Positions 5,486-56,400 are shown, counted from the first letter of the stretch. The stretch: DNA of 64,000 bases from Tubulanus polymorphus (GCF_964204645.1 NC_134026.1:5456001-5520000), one strand, 5' to 3'. The notes: a model not told the origin generated them from the letters alone. A program made the numbers and translations.

Positions 5486-7509
5486 TCAACTTTCCACTAA
5501 ACTTAAAGTGACGGAGCGTTCTCCGTCCAACGATTTCTTCACCTTTTGTGTGGTCAACGTCATTGCTAACCTCACCTGATGTAACCACGGTTTTTCTTTG
5601 AAAGTGTTCGCGACGGATAAACATTTAATCGCGTAGTCTCTGGATTTCATACCCCTATATTTCTCGTACTGATCCAAAGTTCGTTGCGCATCGTCCACCT
5701 CGTAAACCCCTACGTGATAGAACGGTTTCGGCAAACTGTCTACACTGTTCATTGGTAACGGGATGCCGTACTCGGCAGACTTCGCTTTGACGAGTAATGC
5801 TGCTGACTTCGTCTGCCGCTTCTTCGGTCGTCCGTCTGCATCGCTCATCGATTTGGCCGATTTCAAATTTTTCGGCCCGCTAGATTCGTTAGGTTTTAAT
5901 TTACCCGTTTCTAAATAGTTACTTTTCATAGAAGCCGCGCTCGGGCTATTCGGTCTAAGCTCGGATGTTTCTGAACCGGTCGAATGCATAGCGAGATTCT
6001 GGTGTGACTGACTTTTCGATTTCTTCATCGATGATTGGTTGCCATAGCTCAGATTCTGCTGTGACTGGCTAACGCGACGGCGTTCTTTGATTGGTGGTAA
6101 GCGAACCGAGTCATCGAGCTCATCAGTTGGAGACGTCAGCATCGGGTACGTGCTCGATTCGCTATGCCCCGACCTATCACTAGCCTTATCATCTATGATG
6201 CTACTTTTGCCCGATTTTAGACCGGCAATAACGGACTTATTCAAGCGACCGATTCGAGGCAATTTCACATTAACATTCAACAACCTTCTGAAATAGCCCT
6301 CCGGGTCATCGTCATCGATGTCAAGATGTGCCGGCGGCAAGTTCAATATTTTCCTATTTTCGATATCAAATCTGGTGATGGCTTTAGATTTAGCTTGCAT
6401 TTGACACTCGGAAAAGCCGTCGACGTAGACACCCTGTCCAACCAGCGGTGCATCTTTCTCAGGTCGACGCTTCAAAGAAGACTTATCTAAACCGTAAATC
6501 AGTAACGTACGCTCTTTGGCTCGTTCGCCCCAAGCTCTCATCTTGGCGTACAGCGACAACGGTACGGACGTCGTCGAATAAGCGATGCGACTCCATTGCT
6601 TCGTCAACAGAAATTGCGCGCAATGTTTATGTTTCTGTCGAAGAGCGATATTTAGTGGTCTGAGACCGTTACCATCTTTAGTCATAACTGTACATACGTT
6701 GTTATGTACAAAAGCACGCAGTACCCCGAGCTGACCGTTCTCCGTCGCTTCGTGTACGGGACATTTGAAACTGTCGACGTGTTTCGTTTTCAAGCACCAC
6801 TGTCGGTACGGGTGTTGCCCAACTGGTTCATCGTGACGAATTCCCTGTTTCATCAGCGAAATCGCCAGGTCAACGTGGCCAAAATGAGCAGCAATGTACA
6901 TCGCTACTTTCATCTGATATCTGGCCACGAATTCATCGGCCGATAACTTAGCCATCATGTGATCGGTAAAACCCATAACCGCCAGTGTCAAAAAGTCGTT
7001 CCAGCCATCCCATGTTTCCAGGTTAATCGTATCACCTGCCTGGATGTCGTACTCATCAAGACCATGTACATCGTACATTTCCCTATCGTCTTTCGTAACC
7101 AGACGAAACACCCCGACCGGCAGTCCAGTCTTCTTCGACGCTAATGTCCTCAATTCCGCTGTGAGCATTTCTCGAATTTTGATCCGTTCCAGAATGTTCA
7201 AAGTTTCTCGGTTGTGTACGCAGTAGATGTACAGGATCGGATTGCGTTCTTCTTTCAGGAAAGCTCGGATCGTTGATCCGGGATTCACGCCGATATCGGT
7301 GAGAATCCACTCGTCTCCAAGTTCAGCGCCGCCATAACTGAGAACCAAAATATTCTTGGCGGTTTCCATATCTCCGGTAGCTGCATTATTCGGACGGATG
7401 AAGAATTTGTCTTGGACCATTACCTTCACATCGGCTACAGTTTTACCATGCGGAATGTCCATTGATGCCCGTTCATCTCCGAATGAAACGAATATTCGCA
7501 TTTTAGGTT
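5486..7509 (-). CDS. ANKUB1: ANKUB1: ankyrin repeat and ubiquitin domain-containing protein 1, main exon
   Basis: This one large exon carries essentially the whole conserved ANKUB1 protein. The conserved start is the Met at 7499-7501 (MRIFVSFGDERASMDI), giving 671 residues to the stop at 5486. Residues 1-95 form a ubiquitin-like fold, followed by a second ubiquitin-like stretch with the WDGW motif near 165. Ankyrin-type helices span about 190-320 (VAMYIAAHFGHVDLAISLMKQG, PVHEATENGQLG). A basic, Ser-rich low-complexity linker follows, then a conserved C-terminal block containing CLSVANTFKEKPWL. A splice acceptor (polypyrimidine tract and CAG at 7510-7512) lies eight bases before the ATG, so an upstream exon exists; it is either non-coding or the 11738-12242 exon, which joins in frame. 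Family function is poorly known; ubiquitin-like plus ankyrin modules suggest an adaptor. Family recognition is firm, the start less so. Confidence 0.9.
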
Positions 7510-8234
7510 CTGAAAATAGACAAAATTGAAAATAGCCGTCAGTTACTGTGTCGATATTCAATTTCCAAGATGAAACATAAGCGCAATCGCGTATTTTGTA
7601 TATTCATGACCCCATGAACGAGGCGAGAAACATCAGAAATCGCCTAATAAGTAAAAACCCACAGTTGATGATTAGAACGTTTATTGTCTGACAGTTTTAC
7701 TTATTGACTCTGAATACTGAGATTTTGATATCTCTAGTCATCAGATATCGCCTCTTTACCGTTACCATAAAACATTAGAGTCATAATAACGAATTTAACT
7801 TTACTCCACGCCGTTACTAATTGACGCAACGATCTTCATTTACTACATTGTTTTAGTTCTGAGGCGCAGAAATAATTTGTAATCAGACACTCATCAAATG
7901 GTGATGATACTGGGGGATTTTTAGGTCGAATGATTCGGGCGCGTGGAAATCAATAGGTTTACTGGTAATGATCGATGCTTAGTCATCAGAAATATGTTCA
8001 GTTTCATTCGACATAGATCGATTACCAATATCTAGCCTGACGACATCATTGTGGTTTGTAACGTCGATGTGATGTGAAGACTGTGAACTTTATATCATTC
8101 GCAGGACACCTCTATTCTCGCATACTAAATATATACATATTCATTCATAAGAAATTTCATGTAAACAGCGATTCTACAATGTTACTTGGTGATGATTTTA
8201 TTATACATCGGTCCGACAAACCGTGGACGTTACA

Positions 8235-21941: not shown

Positions 21942-26948
<5,007 letters not shown>

Positions 26949-35486: not shown

Positions 35487-35597
35487 AGTCGACAAAAACC
35501 CACAATAAAAAAAAATTTTGAAAATGGCTCATAGATTTGAGTCGAAACGTCAAACTATCAGATAGTTTTTCTTTTTTATTGTGGGTTTTTGTCGACT
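35487..35597. repeat. 111-bp element with perfect 26-bp terminal inverted repeats
   Basis: The left arm (35487-35512, beginning AGTCGACAAAAACCCAC) and right arm (35572-35597) are perfect reverse complements over 26 bases. The 59-base centre contains GAGTCGAAACGTC. Perfect arms in an otherwise diverged AT-rich spacer indicate a recently inserted foldback/MITE. No duplicated target site is obvious. Confidence 0.85.
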
Positions 35598-36055
35598 AAG
35601 CACGACTATGTCTTGCTTATTCTTAAAATTCTCTAAACAGGCAATTAATGAGCTTTTATTATTTAATGCCAGTATGTATGTAGCTGTACTGATGAAGTGA
35701 TAATTTTGATTAATAGAAAGACTTAAGTGTGGTGAGCAAAATTTAATTAGCCTCGGCCAAATTGATTTAGGGCCTATTGTTCCAGTTATCAATTAATAAA
35801 TAAAAGGGAGGTCAGTAAAAGTCCTGGAAAGTCAGGTCTTTGGAAGCCAGGGAATTTCAGCTCTTAGTGCTCAAATAAAAGTTTAATGATATTCTCATGT
35901 TAATTGAGTATCCTTTTCTTGACTGATGATCTTCTTGTTAGTTGAAATTCCCTAGAACTCCTGAACATTTTGTAGATTAAACCCTGACTAAGTGTGAGTG
36001 AAAATATTAATTCTTTATTTAGTAGCTCCCTATACAATAAAGTGTGAACGAGACA

Positions 36056-39000
36056 ATGGATTCAACTGAAAGATACAGATGTGAAGACTGTAATATGAGT
36101 TTCCGTCAAGGGTCACAACTTCAAAAACATAAAGAGAAGTTTTGCATCGGGGCTTCGATCGGAGATCCGATGCATTTAGGATCTAGTATACCCCCAGCTG
36201 CCGTGCATGTTCCCGCCATTGAAGTTTGGAGCCCTTCAAGCCATGGATCTGGTGGTTCAAGACGTCCATATACTCCGGTATAGTAACTTTTCATTCCAGT
36301 CATAACAAGTGAATCTGATTGAACTTAAAGCATAATGTTTCATAATCTAAAACCTAAAAATTCTGTTTTCTATGAAGGCTTAGGTAATTTTTGAAAGTAA
36401 GTTTTGAAGTCTATCATTTATTTGGATTTCCAATGTTAAGTTGATTATATTTATAAATAAAATTAGAATTTATGATTGTATAGGTTTCATGAAAATGAAG
36501 TGTTCGAATAGGCATAAATATTCTTATCCGCTAAATTGGAATCCTTTTATTTTGATATTTGATAACTCACTCCTTATCTGGCATTTCGGTGGAACTTAAG
36601 GGTTAAAATGAACGACCCTCTAATAATATTCAATACATTGTAAGATATTCAAATCATACAGAAGTGTTGGAGTCTAAAAAAGTTCTTGTCAAGCGATATT
36701 CAAAAAATGCCGAAAAAATCTCTCAAGTTTCCATTGATTTATAGTCAGTGCTTGTGAATATGACAAAGGAGCGAAACTATTTCAAACCAACTTTTGTTTC
36801 AATCACTTCTGACGAGTCTTTTTTTAAGAAACCAGTTTCGTTGATAATAGTTCACGTTCTATGTAAGTTTCTTCGTATGAAAGTCATGTGTTTAGAAACA
36901 TATCGTAAACACTGTCTCTAAGGTGGCTTTATCAAACTAAACTCAATGGAGACTCCTCACCAGGAACCCTGCTGTCGGCATGTTTGCCCAAAATGTTTTA
37001 AATTGGTACAAACTGTTTTTTTTTATTGCTTTGGTGGAAGACTAGCATATCATATATATATATATATATCTTAATATCAAAATTATGAGCTTTTCTAAGG
37101 TGGTGGCTACTTTAAAAAAAAAAAAATTGCTTTGATTTTATCTCATGGAGATGGTTTTTTTTTAAACGGTGCTTCGATAACTACATGGTATTTGGCCATC
37201 ATTTATACAAACGTGTATTCTAAACGTTATTTTCAGATTATGGGCACATCTTCCGATATCAATTCTGTTGCTAATGGGGTAATTTTTCTCATCTGATCAG
37301 AAAGCCTCATCCTTAATGAATATTATGTTACGCCTTGGTTTCAACCTGCAGATATTCCTAAACCCTTTTTGGCTAACATTCGGTGATAAGATTACCTATT
37401 ATCAAATGATACCTCAACCAGGGGCGGATCAAGGGGGACTCATGAGACTTGTACACGTCAATAACAGTTTTTTGAGTGCCCTTTTTCGTTTTATCAACAA
37501 AACAAAATTTGCAATTTATAGTATTATGTGTGAATGAAACTGATTCATCTTCACAGAGAGAACAGAAAATTACATTGAAAGATTGCACTTTGTTTGCTAG
37601 AATCATTGCATTTAATGGATATTCAAAGAATTCATTGGATATGGATATCATTTTTCCCCTGGGCATGATGCCTGGGTTCGTATGCCTTCTTGGACATGAA
37701 AGCGTATTTGGGATATGACAAGTTCTTCAAAACAAATGCCTAGATCCACCCCTGCTCCATATGAATAATCATCACATTTTCCCTTTTTTCAAATTCATGA
37801 GTTTGAGCTTTGTTTTATTCTGTTGATATTAATTGCTTCCATTCAGTCTAACAAATGCTACATGTGTAATTCCATACACATTCTCTAAATAAGAGGCGCT
37901 TGAATTCTATTTTACCATATCGCACTTAGGCTTGCTTGCACCAATGAATAAGTAATTCAATTTATTAGAATAAAGCTATATTTACACTTGTTGTATTCTA
38001 CTCTTTGTTAGAACTGTCTTCGGCAATAGTTTTTGCAATTCACTTTGAATAAAGTAAAATATTCCTTTGCATACCGAGTTTTAGAAACAACTTCCTACAT
38101 ACAATCTGTATGGAACAGTATTACAATTGTATTTTGTGTCAATCGATCAGAAAATCACCATAAGCCTATGGCAGTTCAGGCTTACAGTTTCTACCATTCA
38201 ACTTCTTTTGGCTTAGGAAAGAGTTGCTAGATTGTGAACACGTTGCGATTGCCAACGCACTTAAAATGAACTTTAGCGAAGTTATTGAAGATACTAACAG
38301 ACGTTTAGGTCAATTTGATCTCATCAAAAAGGTGACGATGACGACTAAGTTACATTATCAAATACTGTATTAAGACGAAACCAATCAAAATTGATACCGT
38401 AATTAGAATATCATATAGATATTACTGACAGGTAAAAGTTTAGTCAATTAGATCTCATAGAAAGTGATCTTAGTACCTCGGTAAATCAGTAAGATCGCAA
38501 TATCCGCGATGAAACAACAACTGTAAAATTCTGCAATTGTCGAAAAACTAGAAAGTTTATTCAAATATTTCTAGTATTTTAGATAAGATTTTTAGCCTGG
38601 CGACAATTGTGAGGTATTTTTCAGTGGTAAGAATTAGTAAGATGATTAGAGAATTGTGTTATTGATTGATAATGGAACTTTGTCATTTCGTCGAAGATTA
38701 TTCGTCTGGGAGACATGCGAGAATATCGCGGCCGCAAACGACAAATTCGTAACCTCGAGGAATGGATGTTGCTCGAACAACTCGATCAGAAATCGAAAGA
38801 AATCCGCGATAACGAAGAGGCCATCGATTCCGGCGAACCGTTGACTGATTTGCTCGGCGGCGACGGTCGTAAGAGTATGAAAGATACGATTAATATTACA
38901 GTATCCGGTAGGGGCAAGGTAAACGCAGAGAAAAGCGGAGATTGTGGTGAATCCTGAGATTGGAGCTCGGCTTACTGGTGCTTTATTTCCAAACGATAAA

Positions 39001-42000
39001 CGCTATTCATAACTTCACCCCTATCCTGACGCTTTTTAACCCACGGAATTGTCTTATTAGAAAATTTAGCACTTTCTAACTTTTTTTTCTAGATTTCAGA
39101 GCATGCATCGGTGCGTTCGAACACTTTGAAGGGAGATGGACGCGACGAACCGTACAAATTTTACAAGTGATGAACGATGATATTTTCTAAATTTCAGAAA
39201 TCGGGCAGAGAGAGTGAACTCTCTAATTATAGTGACACGTCTAGTGTGAGCATTTTTTCTAATTCTCAAAACAGAAAACAACGGCACCGTCTTGGTGCAG
39301 GTGGTGGTGGTGCTGGTAGGAGGTATAGGGATGTAAGTGGTGCTAGTGCCGCCATTTATAATATATATATATATTTATGACTTATATGCTGGATCTTTAG
39401 TAGAGAATATTACGTATTCAACAAACTGCTTTTTCTACGGTGTTTTTCGCTTTCTAACGTTCAAGTTTTCTACGTTAAAGTATTGAATCGTGTATGTTTG
39501 TATAATACCGGTAATAGTAGGTAGTTATCAGTTTGTAATGTAGTGACAGGTCAACTCATCTGTGACATTGGCGGATCCTGGGGAGCTTTTGCAACTCATA
39601 CAAATCCATCAAGTATTTTTTTGAGTGTTCTATTTCATTTTGTTAACAAAGATAATCGGTGCATTTCAATATCACCTGTTTGGACATCAAAGTGCTTTTT
39701 GGGATGTTATTGGCCTCTGGAAACTTCCCTGGGAAATGATTTCTCCCATTTGTCAGACTAATGCGAGACCTGTTGCTACACACTGATATAGTATACAATG
39801 TATATTGATATGCCTAGTGTTTTGCCGTGAGATATGACTATAGTTTTGCTTTAATTCATGGAATACGTTTAGAGATATTATATTATATGGATTGAATAGA
39901 ATAGATTCAGTTATTCTGAGAAACGCTGAAATCTTTCATTCATTTTTTGTACATTTACCGCTACAATATGTTCTAGTGTATTCAAGTAAAAAGCAGTCCA
40001 TTTCTAGCAGGACTATTTACAACATTGTTAATTCACACTACAGGCTGTTATTAATTCGATTGATATATGAAGAGCACCATTTATCAGCAAAATAGAGGTG
40101 TTTGTCTGATTTCGTTATGAAGGTTTTTGGATAATATGCTAATTCCACATTCAATTTCCTCATTATATCGGTATTTGTTGTGTGAACCTAGAATTAGACA
40201 ATTGTTATGTGAGATAAATTCTGTCGAAGCCATATTTAAAAATGTGTAATGTGAACAGAATTTATTTCATATAGTGTGATGCTGTACATAATGTAGTTAC
40301 CTCCAGTTACCTCCAGTGTTCTCCATATGCTGGAATTTGAAATTTCAAATGACATCATGGCTGCTGAAGTAGCAATGCTTTCAATTCCCAAAAAAAATTC
40401 AGCTTTAACTTACTTTCGATGTAATATCTTCTATTTCTGGTTGGGGCAGAAGATATTCTATAAGGGGTTGCTGATTTTCAGAGGGGTGGATGTAAGGAGT
40501 GGCCACCCTTCAAGAAACTGTTATGGAGAACACTGTTGAAATGCTGATATATGTAGAAAACTAATAGGGATCTTACAAAAATTGTGTATAGACTGCAAAC
40601 CTTCCATCTACCATATTCCCTTCCAAATGGCTGAAAAGTCCCTTCGCTTCTTGCCGTTGCCCAAAAATTTCATAAAATTTTGTGATTTTCCTTGAATGAA
40701 TAGCAGTCTCTTAATTCAAGATGCTGTACTTTACGAGACATTAACACAATTTTTCATTGTCCTGTCTTTTTAGCAGGATAGCTACGAAGACACAAAACGG
40801 TCAAATAGAGGTGCAAATTTCCACGTATTGCAAGCCGCAGAAGAACATGGCCGACAGATCGCGACTATCAGAAACAGAAACCTGGAACTGGAGAGGCAGA
40901 AAGAAGGTAAGACTAAGGCCAAGACGGGCTGGCCAGTTTCCATCCATTTACGAATCCGCTGAGTTTTCCCTGATTCTTCCATAGAATCAACTACTGATTA
41001 GAAGAAAAATGCTGTCAATAGTCCCTGAGTTTAACAGGTTTTTGGTAGAATTCAAACTCTCTGAGTTTTCCCTGATTTTTTCTAGATTTTTTTGATTCCC
41101 TGATTTTTCAGGTCTGTAGCCGCCCTGTAGGAGTTGATCACCTTTTTGGACATCAAATAGAAAATTGATGAAATCTTGCAGTAAACAGCAATGCTAGGTC
41201 CAGGAAAGTTAAATATAACATTTTCTTTGGTAATGTTTTAGATATTCGCAGACGTTTGGAAGAACTAGCCAATCGTGATTTCAAAGATCTAGAAAGTTAT
41301 CGCACGAACAAAGTCATAGAAGATCTGCAGGATCAGGAGAAAAAGAACTCGAAGATTCTCGTCGATCTGAAAAACCAGATGGAATCGTTATCAGCGAGGT
41401 GAATTTCTATTGCTACGAATTACAGATCAGAGAGCATTATTGTGCTCTGGCCTGGGCCCATTTGGCACCCTTGTGAACGGTTGTTGCACAAAAAATGCTT
41501 GTGTGATCATGATATTCCAACTAGAGCTTTGTGTTGTATCCCGGGTGCCTCACTTTTGTCATAAGTGCTTGGACTTTTATCTCCATAGATGATGTGAGGA
41601 ATGTGGAAGAACTTTTGGTCGCAAACAAATTGAGGCCTTACATATAAATTTTGATAATGAATTGCTCTAACATTTGGTTCTAGACTTCTGTTAGACATTT
41701 GAAGACTTTTCATATATGCCCTTGGAAAGACCAGGGAGACTTTCAAGTTTGAAAGACTTCCCAATTGAGCCTTTTTGATCCCTTAGTGATGAGAGCATGC
41801 GAAGATGAACTGAATACAATTAAGGCCTTGTTAAACTGTCTTGCAGGGAATCTTATGATGAAAATTTTCTGAGAAATCTTTACGATGATCTATTTTTGAA
41901 GCACCCTGAAAACCTTGTTCATGGTAGTAGATTACTTACGATATCTTGCCCAGAAAGTCTTTTCATCCTCGATTATTTTACATGTGTCTAAAAATCTATT

Positions 42001-45000
42001 CCTATACGAAGGTTCGAAATCGGTAGAAAAGATTCCACATAATGAAGAAGGCCCTAATGTAAAAAATGAATTTAAAGAAACATTAGACAATAGGGAAAAT
42101 AAGGCAGTGGCCGGAATGAAACGGAATACAGATATTGATGATCGGTTTCAAGATTTACTCAGATATTTTCATAAACAAAAACAAAAGTTTGAGGAAGAAT
42201 CTTACATAGACGAAGAGGAAGAATCCTCTCTAAATGAGGAGAGGTGACTGATTTTAGAATTTTCATTTTAAGGTTTTGAAGTTTTAAATATTTGTTTATT
42301 GTTTTGATTTGAAGCGTTGACTATAGTTGCTTTTGTTTTAGCATCTATTCAATACCTTCTGCTTGTTTTTTGTGTTATAAATACTTCTTGTTCTTGGTTT
42401 AAGCTTGTGTCATAAAAAGATTTCACTAACACTTAGTGAATTTTCTGATTTCAGAGATAACAGGCTGAAAACTTATCCGATGTTTCCGGCGGGATCATTA
42501 TTAGCTGAAATAAGGTATTCAACGATTTCTTCTGAGAAAATCCTATTATTTGGCATCTATTCTCATCATTCGTTCTATCGTTTTCAGTGCTCTGAGGCAG
42601 GCGTATGTAGATGGTGGCGGCAATGACCCGATCGTGCTGGCTCAGTTGGCCGAAATGTTGTACGAGGCTCAGAATATGGAACAGTTGAAATCAAAGCGAA
42701 CTCCAAGACGAAAAAAGAGTTAGTAGTGTTTATCTATATTTAAACTGAATTATTATATGATATCATATTGTATATCATATTACCCCGGTATATGAAAAAA
42801 ATTGGAGCTTTTGAATTTTTTCAATCATTGCAGAAAGAGAACACAATAGTTTAGCCGATCAGCTCATCGCATTTGAAATGGAAAACCAACGTTTGCAAAG
42901 AGAATTACTGCAGCTACAAGCGCAGGAGATGCAGAAACCGAAAGAAACGAAACGCGAATCGCAAGACGAAGACAAATTCGAACGACAAATGAAACAACTG
43001 CAGATGGAACATTTACAGAAGATGCAACAGTTACAGCAGGAAATGGAACTAGTTCGACATCAGCTGGCTTTAGAGAAATATCGGCGCGAGCTAGATATTC
43101 CATATACTCAACCAACACAACCTGTAAGTGGAAAAATACCCATTGATTACCTCACAGCGAGAAAATCTATAATCAATAGTTCATTCATGGTTCTCATAAT
43201 TGAAGCACGTACATACTTAGTTTTACCGAAATTAAATATATTTGCAGCTTGTTATAAGACATTTAGAGGTATATCCAGTGTTCACATCACCTAGTTCTTT
43301 ACGATGTACTCCTCCTATTATGACTTCCTTTCAATTTGTTGCATTCTCAAAACATTTGTCATTTCTTAATGCTCTTTTTTGTAGTGAGAATGAGTTACTT
43401 AGTTTGTGACTATCGTCATTTGCCTTGGACGGGCTCAGCCACTATACTCGTTAAGAGCTGTGCTGGGCAAATGGCGATTGAGACTTGTGTAAACAAAGCG
43501 GAACATATAGTACCCGTATCTTCTTGCAGGTCCCTCGCCCTCGCCCTGTTATTGTCGCCGCTCCTCCCCCTGCTCAACCACCTCATTATACTCCCGTCAT
43601 TCTCTACTCCCCTCGCTACTCCTACCGTCCTTTCTAATTATCATCTCTGCTTCTATTACTGTCTCTTTCATCACCGCTTGTAGAAAACGTAACCTTCACG
43701 ACTAAAGCCCAACGTTCACAGCAACAAGCAGCTAAAAAATTTTTTGTTCGTGTCTTTATTTGAAAACACAATTCAAAGCTACGAATCAACTTGCTATTGA
43801 ATATCAGAATTCTAATAGGTTATTGGAGTAGCTGTGTTGTGTGCATTGGGCTTCACTCTAATAACGTAATGTGTGCGATTGTTTTAGCCTTAAAGATTTG
43901 TCTCTGTTACTAACAAATAGAGTAGATGTGTGTGAAAAAAATATCTTATAGTTCTATTAATTATAATGTAATGTAATGTCTGTTGGTGTAAATAATGTTT
44001 AGATATATAGTTAGCAATTGCTGGATCTCAAAACCCTATATTCTAAAACTAGACTAAAACCAATGTCTGTAATTTCCTAAAAGCTTTGCTTATCCCAATA
44101 GCTTTTATGTATGTTCAAGGTTTTGGTTTGTCGTAGTCTTATATACCTTGTATTGAGAGGGTTTCCTCGGGAAATCTGCTGCCTTGTTTCTGAAGAGTAG
44201 ATACCGGTTAAGGTTTCCCTGAAATGACAAATGATTTGATGAAGTCTATCAAACATTCATTGATCATCAATAATAAAAAAGCTGTATCTTAGCGCGGGAT
44301 TGTGGTTTCAACGTTTTAGTCACTGCTTAATATTCTCTTCATCTTTTCAGTAGTAAACATATATACATATAGAACATTAATTGATATTTCCGATAACTTG
44401 CATTCATTTCAGCCCCCGCCAGCCCTGCCGCCCCGCCCCCCAGATGCTGAAATACCGCAACTGAATCTTTTACAGCAACAAGGAGGTGGTCATAATCAGT
44501 ACGATAATGAGCCACTCTACCCCTCAGGTTATGATGCCAGGTGAGTAATCGGACCTAACAATTCATTCACCTTGTCATAAAGCATGGATTTATCAATTAA
44601 TTTCGGACGGTACAAAAATATGTTTTTTAATATGTACACTATATCTATTCGGTTGATAATTGTTTGAAACCTATCAGAATTATCTTGTTTTGCTTTCTGA
44701 AAAGATTATTTTATATTACTTTACAGCACGGGATTTGTGATCTTCCATGACTTCATATTAAACGTAGATGCGCACATTAAAGCAGTACGATTAATCGTTA
44801 GTTTGTATAATGCTGCTCAAGAGATGGGCGATCCTTCAGTTTTACCGACAACGTTCACGGAGCAGCAAGAGACGGGTGCAGGAGGATATGAAGGAGGAGG
44901 AGGAGGAGGTGGAGGCAGTTCTACCGTAGCTATCATCGGTGCCAAACAACCCGTACCTAGGTGAGTCCATTCGAAGTTTTAGTTAAATCAAATAGTAATC

Positions 45001-48000
45001 TAAAAATCAATTCATTATGTTTTGTCGTCAGTTTCTGACATGATAAGATTTAAAGCATCAGGGACCAGTTGCACAGTCGTGGCTTAAGTCCAAAAGTGGT
45101 CTTAAATCTTAAGACTGGTCTTAAGTTGTTAGATTGGCTATAGAACTAAGTTGGTCTTAGACTGGTCTTAGGTCTGGCTGTGCAACCAGCCCTTGGGTTC
45201 AAATGGGCCAAATGGTCTTAATATTGGACCAAAAAGCTTGGGTATTCATACTCATCATATTACACATACCTTCTCAAAAGAATTATACCCATGATACGAT
45301 TTACACATTATCATCAGGTATCGAATGTTGCTTTTAGGTGTCCTCCACAGCCGGATATGGCCTTGCTGATTGAGTTGCAGATGGCTGAAAGCACTCACGC
45401 CAAACTCACGACGAGAGCTTGGTCGAAAATTGACGTATTTGACGACCAGGGAAGAGTTAATACCGGCCGGTGGAGAATACAGCTGAAAAGTTTACCAATT
45501 AAACCGGAGCTTTCGTCGCAAGAAGTTAGCACGATGCCACCTGTAAGTTTTTGATCGCCATTCTGACCGAGACATTCGAAAGTAATGTCCGCGCAGGTTT
45601 TTGTTGATTTGTTTGTGTTGATTATAGTACGGTCAGTTGGAGCTTTATTTGCGTTTGGTGAATCATCGCGATGCAGATCGACAATCTCATGCATCTATTA
45701 CTACTTCGCATGCTAACAGTTATAGGAATCCTCCTGTTGTAAGTATCCGCTTTAAACGCTTATGGAATGAAATATACAATAATGTGGAATTGAACATTTT
45801 TTGACTGAAAATTGTCTTAAAGGACCTGTTAGCTAAATCAGAAACTTAAAAAGTTTCTGCAGTCGATATGATATAGGAAACCATAATTCTTCATTTAACT
45901 TTAGAATCTCATTAGCATTGAACTGATCGTAACAAACTGATGAAAAATAATTGTATTCATTTTGACAGCGTTTCCACAATAGCCGAGGCTATTCACCTGC
46001 AGTCCAACCTCAGTATCAACAAGCTCCGACACCTAGACATGTAAGTACAATACGTAACAGTAATCAAATCTACTAAAGTTTTATGATAAGGGGACAATTC
46101 AGTTACTGACCATCTTGAATCTGTTGAGAATCATAATTCTTTGTCCGTGTCTGGAAATAATATGTTTTGCATTGTTTTACATTCGATCTGAATGCACAAA
46201 TTGATTAACTGCCTGGTGTGAGTACCTAACTAATGCATGCCTTATATAACACCATCTTCATTGCAGAACTTTAGAAAATATGTTTGTTTTGATTTAATCG
46301 GGTAAACGTTGATTTCACTATGTTTGTCTCTATCTGCCGGATTTATAGAAATTAGTTTAAATCTTAGAGAGAATCAATTCTTGTCTGTTCTACTGATAAC
46401 TTGGTCATGGTTGATTTCCGAACTTCTGTCTGAAAAAGTAATAAAACTTGAAATTTGCTCATATAAAGATGAGCCTCTATATTTCATTCTAAACCGTGTA
46501 AACATGTAGATTTAACTTCAGCAATACCCGTGTACATAGAATTACTGTTAATATTCTCCACCTTAGATACCCATGAGATTTCTGGGTCTAGTCAAATTTC
46601 GTCAGAGCAAAAATGTTACCCTAAATTTCTTCATTAATTCAGTTTAGTCAATTGAGCAGTTAATCTTTTTGCGAAATACGCCTTAGACCCAGTTCCACGT
46701 ATGAAGAGATGAGCACCCTAGTATCGGCTAGTTTTGAAAAAACCAAAAATTACAAAATTTGCTAAAAAGTATGTTGATTTGACTGTGTATCCTTGGTCGC
46801 AGATATAAGAAGCAAAATTGAGCAAATGTATACATGGTATGTTGTCTTATGCAGGGAAGAAATCATTATGAGCAGAGCGAACTAGTTGATATCTTTAAAG
46901 ACAAATATGATAGTAGAAGCCAGGTATATACATACAGTGGTGCATGTGTATGGTGTTGGGAGTTCATCAACTGATATATACTATTCTAAAATCAAATTTT
47001 GATTGCTGTGAATTAGAAAAATCAATCCAAGATTTATCAACAAGGGCACAATTTGTAACCATGAAAAAACAAATCACATTTATTTGTGTTGATTATGGCT
47101 TTGTTTAGCTTAGGAAAAACTGACTTAAAAGCATATGGATCCAGTTCCACAGTTGTGAGTTGGAGTTGACTCTGAGTAAAATCAGCTCACTTTCAATGAG
47201 TTAACTTTTAAACTCAGAACTATGGAAACGGGTCCAGGCTATTTGGGAAAATTGACACCGGTATTTTTCATAACCAAACTAAATCTGTTGTAGCTTTAGA
47301 GTAGTTCATCTTATAGTTCACTGTCTCTTCTGCAAAGCTTTCGCTTCTGCTTATAGCTCTACGATGGCATGAATAGTTTAAAAAACTGAGACTTAATCTG
47401 AGACCCTTCACTTGAAACCTCAACCAGAAGAAACCCAGTCCATTCTTCCATCTGAATTGTGCTTATAGTAACCAACTTTTAATTGAAAAGCATCTTATAC
47501 CGAATCAAAACATAAGCATGTACTTACTTAAGGTTTGAGTTGATGTTCAGGAGAAAGGGTAGAGCATTTCATGATTTTATGTAGTTGGTCCCTCAATTAA
47601 TGAGTATTTTGATACTGTCTATGCTGTGGTAGTGTAACCCATCAGTCTTTCTGTTTATATCTCTTTGCAGGCCATTAGTAATTCTCGGCCAACTCGTCCT
47701 CCTACTACTACTACCACCACTGCCCTGATCCCGAAAACCGTTCCACCTATACCACCATCCGCCCCACCCAGACATATTTCTACACCTCCTGTGCCAATTA
47801 TTGAAACGCCTCAACAAAATATCGAGACTCATCGATCTAATGTGGATACTGCACCTATTGACGATGATAACAGGTAGGAATTACTGGGTGGTTTGGGTGA
47901 ATATGTTTGTTATAGCCACATAGGCTTTTGCTGTGTCATGTATGAGCATCGTGTTTCCGAAAAGAAATAGATGTTGGCATGGACGGTAGTACCCCGATAG

Positions 48001-51000
48001 TCTTTCCTCCTAGCGCTTGATAGCAACTGCTTTCGGTAACTTTTCTCCATCTGTCATACTGGTACATATTCTTATTCCAATATTACACTATCCCTTTAGC
48101 CACCTGTAGCATTTAAAATGCACATTCTGTGATATCTCACCAAATATATTAGACATTGCTGCTGAATAACCACCATCAAGAATTGTTTTCATAAAAACGA
48201 TGTATATTTTTGCCTTGTCTAAAGAGAAAGCTAACGATGAACAGTGAATTGTATATAATGTTGTATTTCAGACTCAAGCCGGTGGAAGGCACAAAGGATA
48301 CCACAGTAGGATTTCAAATTATTAGAGTAAAGAATGCAGACCCAGGAGAAGCAAAAGTTCGACTCACCGGTTACTACACTAACACCGGAAAGGTATAGAA
48401 ATTTAGAATGTAGAAATTCTCATTTAATTGAGAAGGATTTTGGATTTGTTCTGAATTCAGAAATTCAAAAACTAGTTACTGTGTTACATCTTCGAAATGT
48501 TCGTAATACTGATATCAATCAGGGTATGATGTAGGCTATTTTAGGTATTTCATATGACTTAATTGAAGAAAACATTTTTGTAGGTTGCTCAATCTTTTAC
48601 TAGTCCATTAACATGTAGCACGACGGCTGTGCGTTCGAACTTCAAATATCGTTACCACAATTACGGCCAACAAGAAGCAACGTTTCACGGTGTTGATGTA
48701 CGCGCTCCAATCATGCTTGTAGTTAGATTGTATTTACGTAAATCACGAATAGCCATCGACCCCGATCCGGGAGCAGACATGGAATTAGGCGGAGAGCCGC
48801 CTAATGATAATAAAGCTGATGATTCTGAAATATTGACTGCTTGGGGAGCAGTTCCACTCATAACTCCACAATTGCACAACAAAAACCGTAAGTTCTTTAG
48901 CTTACTTTGATGAATTATACTATAACCCCGAGAAATGTTTTAAAGGGTTTTCAGTTATTTCTGTGGTTTCTTATTTTAAGCCATCAATGACATTCTAAGA
49001 TTGGTCTGTGGGGTTTGAAATCGTTTCACCTTTTAGATTTGATCTTTGTCAATTGTTTTTTAAGTGAAATGCTCTTTTCATTTCTGTTTTCTATTTTTGT
49101 TTCAAGGCAATGGACACCGAAAGTTTCCTGGTGAATGGGAATGGAAGGATTTATTTGTGAACGTCGGTACGAAAAACATTCAACTGTACTTGCCTCCTGT
49201 TCCAAATCCGGATACGATCCCACTCGAGCCGCATTATGTGTCGAAAGACTGGACAAGATATGGAAAAGCAGATCTTCGATTGCATGTATTCCATAATATA
49301 CCGCGACCGGGTTCGGTGACACCCAGTGAAGTGTCCGAAGATGAGGACAATGACTCATTGATACCACCAGAGGTATGTTCACATTCACTATCTGTCAGTT
49401 AGCTTCATGCACCATAACTAACACGAATCATTTGGCGATAATATGTTCAGGTAATAACTACCCAAAATATGGTGTCACCTTAAGTGTTGCGCTGTGAAAA
49501 CTGCAGATCCTCAAGTACATGTATATGCCCTTTTGGTAGGCCTTATAGTTACTCAAACTGTAATGCTTATGATTTCTAGCCATGTCAATAATTATGGGTT
49601 AACTGACTTTAGAAAGTACTGTATTATGATAGATGTATCTATTATTTGGTTGCAGGTGGCTTGGATATCATTTGAAAGAAAGATGGTAATCAGTGAACAG
49701 TTTGGTCCATCAGACGGATTTGATTTATATATTGACGGTTGTCGATTCCTACCTGACTCTGTCACTATTACGCGGGTAAGTCTCTGTTACTTTGTTTATA
49801 CATGCATATATAAAGTATCCAGATTCTATATCTCGTAAATATGTTTGCATTTTCTTCTAATGTAGGTAGCTGGGCGAATTCTGACGCGAAGATATGAGAT
49901 GGTTGGAAGAGATATAACGACTATAGTCCGTCCAGATAGTTATATATACAACCCAAAATTTGAACATAAAATGGAATTCCGTGAACCAAATATTCCTCCA
50001 TCTTCAACTCTATTACTTAAAGTAAGAAAAAACGTCAAAATATAAAAGGGTTTTCATTTCTCAAATGACTTATCTTCTCTTTGAACTGTTGTTTTATGCT
50101 AATTTTTTAGGTTTACACGATAGATAGATTTTCAAATAAACTCACGGTTGTTGGATACACAGCGCTGAACATATTCGTTGAAACTGGTACAGAAAAACAA
50201 CCATCTCTCGATGAAGGTGGACAACAGGTCAGAAGAACTAAGAAGTAGTGATGATAGCAGATATTCATATCGTACAAAATCCTAGAGGGAGTCAAAATTA
50301 TATAATTTGTATTTACAATAAACAGGTTTCACTAAATGAAGGAGCTCACCAGTTACGATTGTATCATTTTGGTCCGAATGGTTCAGATCCATTAACTGAG
50401 GGATCGATGAGAGATGCCGGAGTTCGAATTATCCCGTGTGCTTCATTACTCGTTAGACTTATACGAGCTCCAATTGGTCACAATGGTCTGGCTTTGACTG
50501 TAAGTTTTAATTGAACTGTATTTGGAAATCTGAATTTCTGCTGAAATCTTTGATCGATTCTGGTATAGTTTGAAATTGCTCTCTACCACTGTCTCTTTAT
50601 TGTTCTGTTGCTTCAATTAAAGAACCTCTTACATTTATTAATTCTGGTCTGTATTCTTCTCATATCGTTTCCTGTGTTTATAAATGATTTTCAGGGTGAT
50701 AAAATTCCTGAGAAAGATTGGGCGAGGTATGGACTTTGGGTGCCACGTCCACGGTATTCCGACCGTGTATATCTGTCACGCAAATGCGAACCAACCAGAG
50801 GCGAGCGGATGATATTCAAAGCGATGTTACGGCGACCTCAAGTATCGATTGCTGAGGCGGTCGAATTTTTGTCGGGGAAGAAAATAACGGGTGAACTGAA
50901 AATCGAACAGTTCATGAGGGTAAGAGAATTGTCGCACAGAATCACGAAATCATCTTAGAATGAATTGGAATCATATTTGGTTCTCGTTAATGTCCTTTTA

Positions 51001-52443
51001 GAATCAGTTGACCAAACTGATGGATACAACACCCCAAGATCAAGACATGACATTCATTTCAAAATATGACCCTCAATCGGGTATCAAAGTTGCGATTGAT
51101 ACGGCCATGAATTTACCATGGAGCGGTTTTACTCATGCTGTCTTCTGTTTGAATCCACCTGGAGCATTTTACATGGTATGTTAAATTTCTTCTCAATGAT
51201 TATCTAAGGTTTTTTGTTCATTCCTCTATTCGTGGATCTGCATCAATTTTCTCGATTTCCAGGGAGCGCCTCACGCTTCATATGACAAACCACAATTCAC
51301 CTCGCAGCTGGATCTTTACAGCACAAACAAGTCACCAACGTGGAAAGATGGATTCAGGGTATGAACTTTCTAATCTTTCATCAACTCTCTTAATCAGCAA
51401 TAGACTATTCATGTAAATTTTGCGTTTCAGCATTTTCAAAGTCGATCGTATCATCGTTATTTGTGTGTGATAATACATCTACAGGAGATCAGCGTCTCTG
51501 TGAATAAAGAAAACTACAAATACGGTTTACTTGAACAGGTAATATAGATTTAATCTCTATTATTGCTGATTATTTATCCCATGATTGTATCATTAGCTGA
51601 CATGTGCAATTCTCCCATCATTTTCTAGGGTTGGACAGCAGTTCAAGTGTTCAATGATATGTACGCTAATACACAAATCTATCAGTTACCAGTATTTCAT
51701 GGCTCTCCTACTCAGAGCATGCTTAAACTTTTAGCTCGCGAACCGTGTATAGAGTTTGTACAACGAGGACTACAAAATGGCTCGGTAAGTCACTTGTTTT
51801 CCAAGAAATATCATATTCCTCCGCTCTTCGATGGTACATGGACCCGTTAATAACGTTTTCTACTGAATATTTCAGTTAAAACTGCTGGAAGGAGCTTCGT
51901 TGTTTGTGCGATTATGTGATGCTAGACGAGATGAAGAACTTACTGAAAAAAGAGAGGATGACGTTGTAAGTACATTATCATGTACATTCAACATCAGCAT
52001 CCTGTTTGATTGCCCATCAGGGCTAAAAATCTTTAATGATTTTATTCTGATTTTAGGTTTATTTGCAATTGTTTATTTCATACTCTCAATAAAGCAAACG
52101 TCATGAAATTAGTTTATGAAATCAGGCTCCACTGAGCATGCCTTTATGTGATGCCTTATTTTGGGTCCATTTCAGATGGAATTGTCAACCGAATATATCC
52201 CACTTCCCTTGTATCAAAAATACACCACGGAACTACCTGGTCAACAGTTCATACAGATGATACCTCCTGGTAGAGAAACCTCTGAATTTACCGCTGGTCT
52301 TGCTGCCAAATTCAAAAGTGTAAGTAGTCAGTGCTTTGCTGATCTATCTAATGTACTGATAGGCATATTTTGAATATTATCGATATATTCCAATTTTGTA
52401 GTTGGTATACAAGTTATACGAAGAAGGAAACTTAAATGTATGA
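36056..52443 (+). CDS. CCDC17: CCDC17: coiled-coil domain-containing protein 17, long form
   Basis: Exons joining in frame to about 1,706 residues: 36056-36277, 37237-37278, 38224-38331, 38697-38918, 39198-39332, 40777-40906, 41242-41398, 41847-41923, 42012-42243, 42455-42514, 42588-42718, 42834-43123, 44413-44540, 44727-44960, 45338-45542, 45628-45738, 45969-46040, 46855-46923, 47671-47873, 48272-48392, 48584-48887, 49107-49372, 49656-49775, 49866-50021, 50111-50227, 50326-50499, 50695-50919, 51002-51175, 51263-51358, 51431-51538, 51629-51784, 51876-51965, 52176-52319, 52402-52443. It opens with a zinc-finger-like CEDCNMSF...KHKEKFC, then coiled coil (about 130-600), a Pro-rich hinge, and C2-like beta segments (for example FVIFHDFILNVDAH, FDLYIDGCRFLPDS, IKVAIDTAMNLPWSG). 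Human CCDC17 shares the start and the VIFHDF...QPVPR region but is about 622 residues. Exons 2 and 3 are least certain (exon 3 has a poor acceptor). Confidence 0.88.
37052..37069. repeat. (AT)n microsatellite
   Basis: Nine AT units lie in CCDC17 intron 1. A similar shorter TA tract is present near 39358-39376. Confidence 0.9.
37419..37754. mobile_element. Non-autonomous hAT-like DNA element in CCDC17 intron 2
   Basis: The left end CAGGGGCGGATCAAGG (37419) and right end CCTAGATCCACCCCTG (ending 37754) are near-perfect inverted repeats in the CAGGG(G) style of hAT transposons. The 336-bp interior has no transposase frame. No matching 8-bp target duplication was found, so the copy is probably old. 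Confidence 0.6.
39093..39170 (+). CDS. Possible alternative (stop-containing) exon of CCDC17
   Basis: It follows a strong acceptor (polypyrimidine tract and TAG at 39090-39092). It reads in phase with the exon ending at 38918 for 25 codons (ISEHASVRSNTLKGDG...), then hits TGA at 39168-39170. The only nearby donor (AA|GTGATG) leaves a phase the next exon cannot accept and a 30-base intron. It is therefore either a terminal exon giving a short isoform, a poison exon, or a chance frame. Confidence 0.35.
   Translation: MSEHASVRSNTLKGDGRDEPYKFYK
39573..39760. repeat. Diverged copy related to the 37419-37754 element
   Basis: It begins with GGCGGATCCTGGGG and shares the segment TTTTTTGAGTG(C/T)(C/T)CT followed by GTTTT(A/G)TCAACAAA-like sequence, and later a CCCTGGG(A/C)AATGAT-like end. 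Homology is visible by eye but the termini are eroded. Confidence 0.45.
41445..41512. repeat. Repeat family copy (TTGTGAACGGTTGTTGCA block)
   Basis: It shares GTGAAC(A/G)GTTGTTGCA and TGCTTGTGTGATC, at similar spacing, with 63356-63418, and both are preceded by a GGCCTGG- and ATTTGGC-like sequence. This is a dispersed repeat of unknown class. Confidence 0.5.
43530..43637 (+). CDS. CCDC17: Alternative proline-rich terminal exon of CCDC17
   Basis: A strong acceptor (TTCTTGCAG) at 43521-43529 opens a phase-0 frame of 35 codons, VPRPRPVIVAAPPPAQPPHY and onward, ending TAA at 43635-43637. The exon ending at 43123 is also phase 0 and ends TQPTQP, so the join is in frame and would give an isoform that stops after the coiled coil (about 637 residues, close to the length of human CCDC17). 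The main path instead splices from 43123 to 44413, which is also Pro-rich. Coding character is good; use is inference. Confidence 0.5.
   Translation, partial: VPRPRPVIVAAPPPAQPPHYTPVILYSPRYSYRPF
45061..45192. mobile_element. Palindromic MITE, copy 1 (GTTGCACAG termini)
   Basis: Terminal inverted repeats: GGGACCAGTTGCACAG on the left, and the complement of GGGCTGGTTGCACAG on the right. The interior is built from repeats of (A/C)TGGTCTTA and its complement TAAGACCAG, so the whole 132 bp folds back. It lies in CCDC17 intron 14. Confidence 0.75.
47137..47235. mobile_element. Palindromic MITE, copy 2 (diverged subfamily)
   Basis: Left end GGATCCAGTTCCACAG, right end the complement of GGACCCGTTTCCATAG; the arms continue to pair through GAGTTGGAGTTGACTC and TGAGTTAACTTTTAAACTCA. 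It is 99 bp, in the intron before the exon at 47671. Termini resemble copy 1 while the centre differs. Confidence 0.6.
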
Positions 52444-53388
52444 ATGCAATGAATACCTACAAGACTCGAGCTGTCACTTTACAAACTGCCCTTCATCAGC
52501 ATGAAATGGAATGTTTAATAAAGTGGAATGAACTCCTTGGCTTTCAGAATCAAAAAATATCCGTGTCTCCATTCTTTGTATTGTTAACAAATGCATTGCG
52601 AGTCAGCTAGTTTTAGATTAACAATAATTCTTGTTATTAAATGTATATATTACTTTTAAAAAGATTGCTTCTCCTGGGTCAAAAATGTGCATCTTAAATT
52701 TAGTATTGTCTCATATAGATACAGTATACTAGTGAAATATGTAATTATCTTTGTAATGTTGTATATTAAGTTGTGTGACTATTTTTTGTATATGCTTATT
52801 TATGTTTATGATGCCATCCATCTGCTGTATTTGTGGATACAATAAGTGCTAATATAATTTAACCGTCCAACAAATTCATACTTCAATATACCGATGTTCG
52901 TATTTACTTATTGTATTTTTGTGTATAAGCATAAGGAATAATAATGAAGACTTTACCATATTTGAAAATTGTTTTATTATCGCTGGATTGTGGTCCCGTT
53001 TTAATCAGATATTGTCAAGCCCTATCCGACATCAAAATCTAACAATGCAGGGTGTCATCTGAATCTGTAGCCTTGAAGCCATCTCCCATTTAAACATTCA
53101 CCAATGAAGTGTCAAATCTCAATGATTGCGGGGATAAAATGACTGGATGTCCGGTGTTTGTGGTGCATTCTTTTGTTCATTTTTTATCAAAATGTCCGAT
53201 GTGAAGTCCAGACGACAGATGACGCGTCGACAATCGTGAATTGGGAAGAGTGGTGGATTGATAATTGAATGCCTGAGGGGTGGTTCCATACTGTAAATTG
53301 AAACCTACGTACAACCTCGACAGAGCAGTTTCACGGATCCTTCAGTCGATGAAATATTTAGCTAAAGAGGAACTGCTGATAATTTTAG
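52444..53388. other. Convergent 3' ends of CCDC17 and DMAP1
   Basis: AATAAA at 52517-52522, 74 bases after the CCDC17 stop, is one candidate poly(A) signal; the AT-rich sequence to about 52950 allows a longer 3'UTR. No coding exon is present. Confidence 0.5.
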
Positions 53389-53394
53389 TTTATT
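53389..53394 (-). terminator. Candidate polyadenylation signal of DMAP1
   Basis: TTTATT (AATAAA on the minus strand) lies about 35 bases past the DMAP1 stop codon. Confidence 0.4.
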
Positions 53395-53427
53395 TCTATA
53401 CACAATTTATTTACAATCAACCGGTAT

Positions 53428-56400
53428 CTAAACTTTATGTTTGATCTTCTTCAGAATATTACTCTGTTCTAAAGCCGCTCTTCTTTTACGCTGAAAAATA
53501 AGAAAGAAAATGCAAGAAAATAAACAATAAATCAACTACATCACAATACAGTGTATAACAAATAACTCAACGAATAGAAGTTACTCACCAGTTCTCCAGA
53601 GTTAGGTGTACCCGGTGTTCCGACTACATCTATCGTTTCTGAGATCTTCTTCTCTTTTCCCGGTGATTCGTTTATAGATACATCGATCGCTGCTAACGTC
53701 GACGAGGTTTGCGTCATGTTCAGGATCGGACCCAAGTCTAAAGGCTACAGACAAAAATATGTAAGGAATATCTATAATGCTTTCGAAACAAGATAGGGTA
53801 ATTTCTTCTAGGAGTCCAGCTATGAACAATGCTCTTACCTTTCCAGGCGCTAATTGCTCGTATCTGTGACGTAAAGTTTGTAGCTCGTATTCACAATTCG
53901 CCAATGCTACCTTTAGTTCGTACAGTAATACAATATCTTGTCTTAACTCGTTAAAATTCTGTACAATTTCCTCCGAAGGTATAGGATTGAATTCTGAAAA
54001 TAATTTCAATAATTTCATAATCGAGGACTAATCTATACATATGAATTTCAAAACGTCATTTTTTGATACAGTCAAACCAACTCAATTTGGATAAAATTTT
54101 ATCTAATCTAAATATCATTTACCAGTATGGCCCAGCTATACGTAAATGTAAGTAGAATATGATGTTTAATTCAGATTTCCTATAAACCGCATTCACTTGT
54201 CCCTTACCTATTCCCAATTCTTCTAAAACTTGTTCTAACGCTTTAGTTTTCTTCTGTCCAACTGACGAAGGCAATTTCATCTGAGAAAGTAAAGGAATGG
54301 TTATCAATTAAGAATTGCAGTTGTCAACTATACATAAGGGACTGTTCTTGAAATTCATATAAGAAGAGGAAAGAATCTTGCATGTTCCATTCGTGTACAA
54401 CCCCTGAATGAATGTTTTGATTTGAGAGATTACCCTTTGGCTTCTGAGCGTGACACCGGGTTGTTTGAAATCGGGGAATTTAATACCAGTCGTTTCTGGA
54501 ACGGTCTGAAAACAAAAAAGGTATAACGGAGTAAGTCTAACTCAAATACAAGTCATCGGCGATTGCTGATCTAAATCATCAGTATCCCTACCACATCTTT
54601 ACTCTTCTGCGTGAAAGGCATCTTCTTTTTCGGGTTTTTCTTATCGTGTTTGCGAGCGTCGACGTTACTGTCGGCGGCCGTTATCAGTTTCTGGAGATCT
54701 TGTGTTTTCTTTTCTCGTTCTTTCTTTCTTTGCTCGATTTTCTTCAATTCATTCATGAGATTTTCTTCCTCTTCGATCTAAAATGCATAGAATAATAGAA
54801 TATTTTGAAGCCATCAGCATTTTCACAAATAATCAATTAATTTACTGTTATCATATACATGTAGTTAGGCTTTTACTCATTTAAGAAAGTGATTCAGCAG
54901 AATTAGCTTCTACTGACAATACGTTGGAGTTAAAAGAAAGAAAAATATCACCAACTACAGCAGAAAAGAGAAATAACAAATGTGCACTTTTCCCCCCCCC
55001 CCGAGACCCTATCATAAAACAAACATGGGGCCGGTTCCATAGTCATAGCTCAGTATAAGACCAGCATAGTTCTAAGCCAATCTAACAACTTGACACTGGT
55101 CTCAGGAAGGTTAAAGACCACATTTGGACGTAAGTCCCCTTTTCCTAGAATGCAGTTTCACTGCGCATTACATAGCGGTCATGCAGCTATGTGCTTTTAT
55201 TACTTGACAACGCCATATTGAAGGTCATACACAATGGTATATTTACATGAAAAATCCCTGAAATTTGCAAGTGACCATATCATCTTTTGTTAAGTATAGC
55301 AAGTCAACACTGATGGGCTAACAAACTAAGACGTCTATCATGGAGGTTTTTATTTTGCGCTGATACCTGTTCATTAGTCCTGTTAAACAATTTATTCAGT
55401 TGGTCTTTTCGTCTTCGTTCGTGATCGGCGTCAAATACTTTGACTTTCGCTTCGTGACCGGGAGGAGCGTGCAACTAAAAATACACCGAAAAACATGAAC
55501 AGCCGCTAAAATCTTCAACAGTTTAATGCCACAAAGAAATGAAATCCCATCCCATCTATATGAAGTAGATAAATTTCATTCTTAATAATCTTAATAATCT
55601 GTATTTACTGTACTCTCATCAGATTTAATCATAAATTCACAACCTACTCAAGTTTTTTGGTTTCTCATTCCAAAACTCTTTATCTATCTTTTTTCGAATA
55701 TTTCTCGACGTTATCAAATTTACCTTCGTTAAAATGTTACAAATGCCGTAGTAACGCTCTTTCAAATCTTCGACGCTTCGTTCGGAGAATTTCTCGCGGT
55801 CCCACCGATCGTGCATGACGATGAATCGTAAATCGAACCGCCGTCCCAACTCGAACAGATGATCGGTCTCCTGACGAGTCCATTTATCGTCGTGTAAATT
55901 CTGCTGGTATTCGATGTCGGAGTACGACGGAATGTCCACTTGCTGTACATAAACAATTGGAACTTCGATGAATAAATTCATGAATACGTGTACATTTTGA
56001 CGAGTATAACACTACTAGGGGGAGTCCCAGAGAGGCGCAGTGGCCGAGTGGGTTAAGCCGCCAGTCACTGGTCTCGTCAATCCAGGGTTTATGGGTTCAA
56101 ACCCTGGTGGCGACAGAGTTTCTTGGTCGAAGGTTCTTCTCTGGTCTCTCCCCCATTGGGAAAAAGAAACATCGAACCCCCTTATAATGCCTTGTGTGGC
56201 GCTGATTTTGATTTCACGAACACCCTTTTTAACTTAGCTTAGCGGGTTAAGGGTGTTAAAAAAAAGAGGGAGTCCCAATTTGGCTTTGAGGTAGTTAGAT
56301 AATCCAGTATCTGCTGTATGAAATCTTTGTTTGTCTTTAATTTCATGATATGAAGGGAGTTGTGGAGGGCCGCATTGAATCAGAGTAAGCATAAAGACAG

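Follow-up and report, generated by a model that had tools for sequence, protein, structure and literature searches.

A long CCDC17-like gene with a probable C2 domain in its extended C-terminal tail in a spiralian

We identified one long gene on the plus strand of the window, the whole stretch of 64,000 nucleotides that was analysed. The gene runs from an ATG at 36056 to a TGA at 52443 in 32 exons whose GT-AG borders were checked base by base, and its spliced product of 1,615 amino acids reads in a single frame without an internal stop. The product opens with a C2HC zinc-finger-like region, continues with a coiled coil and a VIFHDF...QPVPR block, and ends, after a proline-rich linker, with about 880 more residues. 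The gene appears to be a spiralian orthologue of CCDC17, from a protostome, as judged by alignment with a human sequence. Its tail holds one probable C2 domain and may hold as many as three. We consider it fairly probable that this is one long spiralian CCDC17 gene whose C2-like tail would act as a calcium-independent scaffold in motile cilia, an explanation built on the observed gene anatomy and on the C2-like signal in the third of four modules described below.

The region 35500-54500 was read and 34 candidate exons were delimited by means of their GT-AG sites. Candidates 5 (39093-39166) and 9 (42012-42243) broke the frame with the chosen bounds and were omitted, so that the model consists of exons 1-4, 6-8 and 10-34 with the original numbering kept. 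The sequence-only reading had counted about 34 exons, joined in frame into some 1,700 residues; the continuous frame stood, while both figures proved close but slightly too high. Exon 1 (36056..36277) has an open frame and carries the start ATG and a C2HC/C2H2-like zinc finger within residues 1-74. The finger scored 20.4 bits against Pfam zf-C2H2, for which the cut-off is 25.2, and its fourth ligand is Cys. Exon 2 (37237..37278), of 14 amino acids, is tentative, with good splice-site scores, phase 0 and a slightly negative codon score. Its join to exon 3 (38188..38331) is the single weak point of the model. The in-phase acceptor at 38188 scored 3.9, slightly under the trusted acceptors, and was needed because 38217, which lies nearest the conserved sequence, is out of phase. 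The helical or coiled-coil exon 4 (38697..38918) and the Ser/Gly-rich exon 6 (39198..39332) are followed by coiled coil in exons 7 (40777..40906) and 8 (41242..41398). The SLLAEISALRQAY block, common to human CCDC17, begins in exon 10 (42455..42514), and the SLLAEISALRQAYVDGGGNDP block in exon 11 (42588..42718) aligned with the human sequence. A Gln-rich coiled coil in exon 12 (42834..43123) and the proline-rich exon 13 (44413..44540) lead to the first module, which bears the VIFHDF...QPVPR block. This module comprises exons 14 (44727..44960) and 15 (45338..45542), both of which aligned with the human sequence, and exon 16 (45628..45738), which encodes its final strand GQLELYLRLVN and ends at residue 736.

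Human CCDC17 is 622 amino acids long and begins with a zinc finger. When a human CCDC17 sequence was used as a BLASTP query, it matched exons 13-16 with 116 bits (34% over 193 aa) and the coiled coil with a further 54 bits; 39 residues of this query agree with a peptide printed in PMC11263391. The identity given to the gene in the sequence-only reading is supported, as both the coiled-coil block and the VIFHDF...QPVPR module align with the human query. The two proteins have in common the coiled coil, the SLLAEI-ALR-AY block, the VIF-DF ... QPVPR block and a GQ-EL-LRLVN-RDA strand. The human protein, however, ends soon after the first module, whereas the one described here extends about 880 residues further, in agreement with the roughly 900 predicted earlier. 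A search of the same genome found no second copy, and no stray eukaryotic relatives were found in the viral and prokaryote collections.

In the tail beyond the linker we see three more C2-like modules, all on the plus strand, whose exons were placed by splice and codon scoring unless stated otherwise. Module 2 (residues ~860-1070) is encoded by exons 20 (48272..48392), 21 (48584..48887), for which the segment AWGAVPLI was also considered, and 22 (49107..49372), which includes the segment after the module. Module 3 (residues ~1085-1270) comprises exons 23 (49656..49775; FDLYIDGCRFLP), 24 (49866..50021; NPKFEHKMEF), 25 (50111..50227; LKVYTIDRFSNKLTVVGYTALNIF) and 26 (50326..50499), where it ends; a C2 profile match spans exons 24-25. 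Exon 27 (50695..50919) lies between modules 3 and 4. Module 4 (residues ~1370-1550) starts in exon 28 (51002..51175; IKVAIDTAMNLP) and continues through exons 29 (51263..51358; SPTWKDGF), 30 (51431..51538), with good splice sites and a codon score of about zero, and 31 (51629..51784), which has the segment GWTAVQVF, to its end at ASLFVRLCDAR in exon 32 (51876..51965). Exon 33 (52176..52319) encodes the C-terminal tail, and the last codons and the TGA stop are in exon 34 (52402..52443). The three consecutive introns at 51176-51262, 51359-51430 and 51539-51628 have lengths of 87, 72 and 90 bases, each divisible by three, and in-frame stops are present in all of them.

To examine the C2 character of these modules, PF00168 was used to locate C2 exons in the genome, and a profile was built from 30 such exons. 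Module 3 scored 12.5 bits, a value equalled by none of 1,000 shuffles (best shuffle, 1.9), and it aligned in the expected register from NPKF..MEF to LLLKVYTIDRFSNKLTVVGYTALNI. It resembles the second half of a canonical C2 domain (PF00168) in NPxF..EF, LxVY, D and VGYxxL, but differs in that it falls below Pfam detection and that the calcium-binding aspartates are mostly missing. The counterpart of the acidic loop reads VYTIDRFSNK and lacks two of the three Asp usual in calcium-binding C2 domains, which argues for a calcium-independent reading. Modules 1 (residues ~554-720), 2 and 4 scored at noise level, which tells against a C2 fold, although the C2 exons of RPGRIP1L and CC2D2A from the same genome did no better, so that the profile fails to recognise C2 domains of the divergent ciliary kind. 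For these three modules the C2 reading draws on the sequence pattern and on weak internal similarity, and is no more than probable. A Pfam scan of the whole product gave no domain in the tail, and sequence searches of the PDB returned nothing for it; matches of module 1 to scFv linkers in the PDB search were due to a glycine run. Structures were predicted for two contiguous translations, of which one covered a single exon (48584-48883) and the other ran through exons 28-31 including the introns, and were uninformative (mean pLDDT of 42.5 and 38.3).

At least three segments with a C2-like strand pattern had been proposed before, with examples near residues 647, 1190 and 1465. These correspond to FVIFHDF (557), FDLYIDGCRFLP (1104) and IKVAIDTAMNLP (1374) in our product, the constant shift of about 88 residues indicating that the same segments are meant. 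The claim stood for module 3, which the profile supports independently, while the others are only probable; as to the count, four modules are seen and the one in exons 20-22 had been overlooked. In the C-terminal part (1,062 aa), a loosened form of the earlier pattern was found 4 times, where shuffles would give 0.25, a contrast that overstates the evidence because the loosened pattern was fixed after the data had been seen.

It is also conceivable, if unlikely in our estimate, that the tail consists of beta-rich domains of a non-C2 kind, module 3 perhaps excepted. Modules 1, 2 and 4 have no family match, as this alternative would have it, and the internal similarity of the modules is marginal. 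In pairwise alignments, the score of modules 3 and 4 was reached by 2 of 500 shuffles and that of modules 1 and 3 by 9 of 500. Profile comparison among the four modules gave weaker and marginal scores (11 of 1000 shuffles for modules 1 and 3). Because a coiled-coil control compared with module 3 did as well as the modules (15 of 1000 shuffles) and the scores are marginal, internal repetition is suggestive only. On the other hand, each module contains one segment of the form [AG]-[WY]-[GST]-x-hydrophobic-x-hydrophobic-hydrophobic, a pattern that was read off afterwards: AWSKIDVF, AWGAVPLI, GYTALNIF and GWTAVQVF in modules 1 to 4. In module 4, moreover, the segments IKVAIDTAMNLP ... SPTWKDGF ... 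YLCVIIHL ... GWTAVQVF follow one another as C2 strands would be expected to.

The combination of a coiled coil with C2-like modules had been likened to RPGRIP1L and CC2D2A. The layout is indeed similar: RPGRIP1/RPGRIP1L are ciliary proteins with C2 domains after a coiled coil, and CC2D2A is a ciliary protein with a coiled coil and divergent C2 domains. The likeness is an analogy, however. RPGRIP1/RPGRIP1L differ as transition-zone proteins, published data placing CCDC17 in motile ciliated cells and at the tip of the cilium, and neither the Pfam domain C2-C2_1 of that family nor CC2D2AN-C2 of CC2D2A (PF11618 and PF15625, respectively) has a match in CCDC17, while their true members are found elsewhere in the genome. 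Since RPGRIP1L (G000 C3:27.509 Mb) and CC2D2A (G000 C2:8.367 Mb) are separate genes and their diagnostic domains are unmatched, the CCDC17 gene does not belong to either family.

Human CCDC17 may be a shortened version of a longer form, and vertebrates may have lost the tail. Shortening fits the human sequence, to which the 1,615-residue product shows no similarity beyond residue 736. Extending this, we put forward tentatively, at somewhat below even chances, that in the animal ancestor CCDC17 was a large scaffold with several C2 domains at the tip of motile cilia, whose C-terminal half was lost in vertebrates. Conversely, the short human form could be ancestral and the tail added in this lineage by fusion with another gene. 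With only two lineages compared, loss and gain are indistinguishable; yet the weak mutual similarity of modules 1 and 3 would fit duplication within one old gene, and the own-genome search found no further copy of the tail elsewhere. We regard a fusion as doubtful. A long CCDC17 was not described in any paper of the literature searched, though automatic annotations may well exist.

The joining of the CCDC17-like part to the tail depends on the linker exons 17 (45969..46040), 18 (46855..46923) and the Pro/Thr-rich 19 (47671..47873). They connect the two parts in frame, with good splice sites (strong ones for exon 19) and coding-like codon use, the codon score being positive for each. Residues 699-935 of the spliced product contain no methionine, so that a free-standing tail gene could begin only half-way through module 2 or in an exon that has escaped notice. 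A candidate poly(A) signal, AATAAA, lies at 52517..52522, 74 bases past the stop. Taken together, the open frame, the coding-like exons 17-19, the missing start codon for the tail and the AATAAA after the final stop argue for one gene, judging from the DNA as read. That a short CCDC17 instead ends near exon 17, with the C2-like tail encoded by a neighbouring gene of the same orientation, is quite improbable: exon 17 read into its own intron does run into a stop 12 residues on, intron 17 has an AATAAA at 46440, and the human protein terminates at about the same point, but base composition predicts about 2.4 chance AATAAA in that 2.5-kb AT-rich stretch where one was found, and the linker exons and the methionine-free segment speak against it. 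One gene remains our preferred reading, and it may produce an additional shorter transcript.

Directly downstream and tail to tail with CCDC17 is a DMAP1 gene (53602-56011, minus strand) with DMAP1 and SANT_DAMP1_like domains. In vertebrates, the neighbourhood of CCDC17 includes NASP and GPBP1L1 (PMC4082323). Elsewhere in the window, a Vasa/DDX4-like DEAD-box helicase gene occupies 24697-25305, 23826-24563 and 22317-22652, all on the minus strand, and encodes CCHC zinc knuckles, five in all. A tandem repeat of 87 bases with 93% matching covers three to four of them, so that a recent duplication of the knuckles is probable. An intronless open frame of 705 amino acids (5486-7603, minus strand) combines a ubiquitin-like domain with ankyrin repeats. 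In another part of the assembly, contig C6 carries a Hox cluster (loci L044-L052 and L056; G000 C6:5.318-5.635 Mb), all found members of which are on one strand, Lox2/Lox4-like genes among them. It includes a Lox5 gene with a KLNGPNG peptide, two genes with UbdA-type peptides (QQIKELN and LQAIKELN) and a Post2-like gene; Lox5, UbdA-type and Post2-like Hox genes mark a spiralian protostome.

The ciliary location proposed for the protein is carried over from published human data. Human CCDC17 is among the ciliary tip proteins recovered with DNAAF9 in mature airway cells (PMC12700831), and another study uses it to mark ciliated cells (PMC13096173). Two papers count it among transcription factors or predicted regulators (PMC10024626; PMC12832812), presumably on account of the zinc finger. 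A search of the 1 kb before the start codon revealed no RFX X-box-like site. A palindromic X-box-like sequence, GTTGCGATTGCCAAC, is present at 38242-38256 inside exon 3 with a 10/12 match, and could be due to chance or mark an internal start. We propose that the product consists of a zinc-finger-like start, a coiled coil and module 1, to which a proline-rich, disordered linker joins as many as three additional C2-like modules. The coiled coil would most likely multimerise CCDC17 and anchor it at the ciliary axoneme or tip. The C2-like tail would most likely act in motile cilia as a scaffold that contacts proteins or membranes independently of calcium.

CCDC17 is poorly understood and serves as a marker for ciliated cells. 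If a long form with C2-like modules, more than twice the length, exists outside vertebrates, the missing half may explain binding partners, and invertebrate cilia would be the better system in which to study the protein. A member from the ciliary tip would also join the proteins that combine coiled coils with C2 domains, which are known mostly from the transition zone and the centriole. Should the ancestral protein have been a multi-C2 scaffold, work on the human protein would miss most of the ancestral machine.
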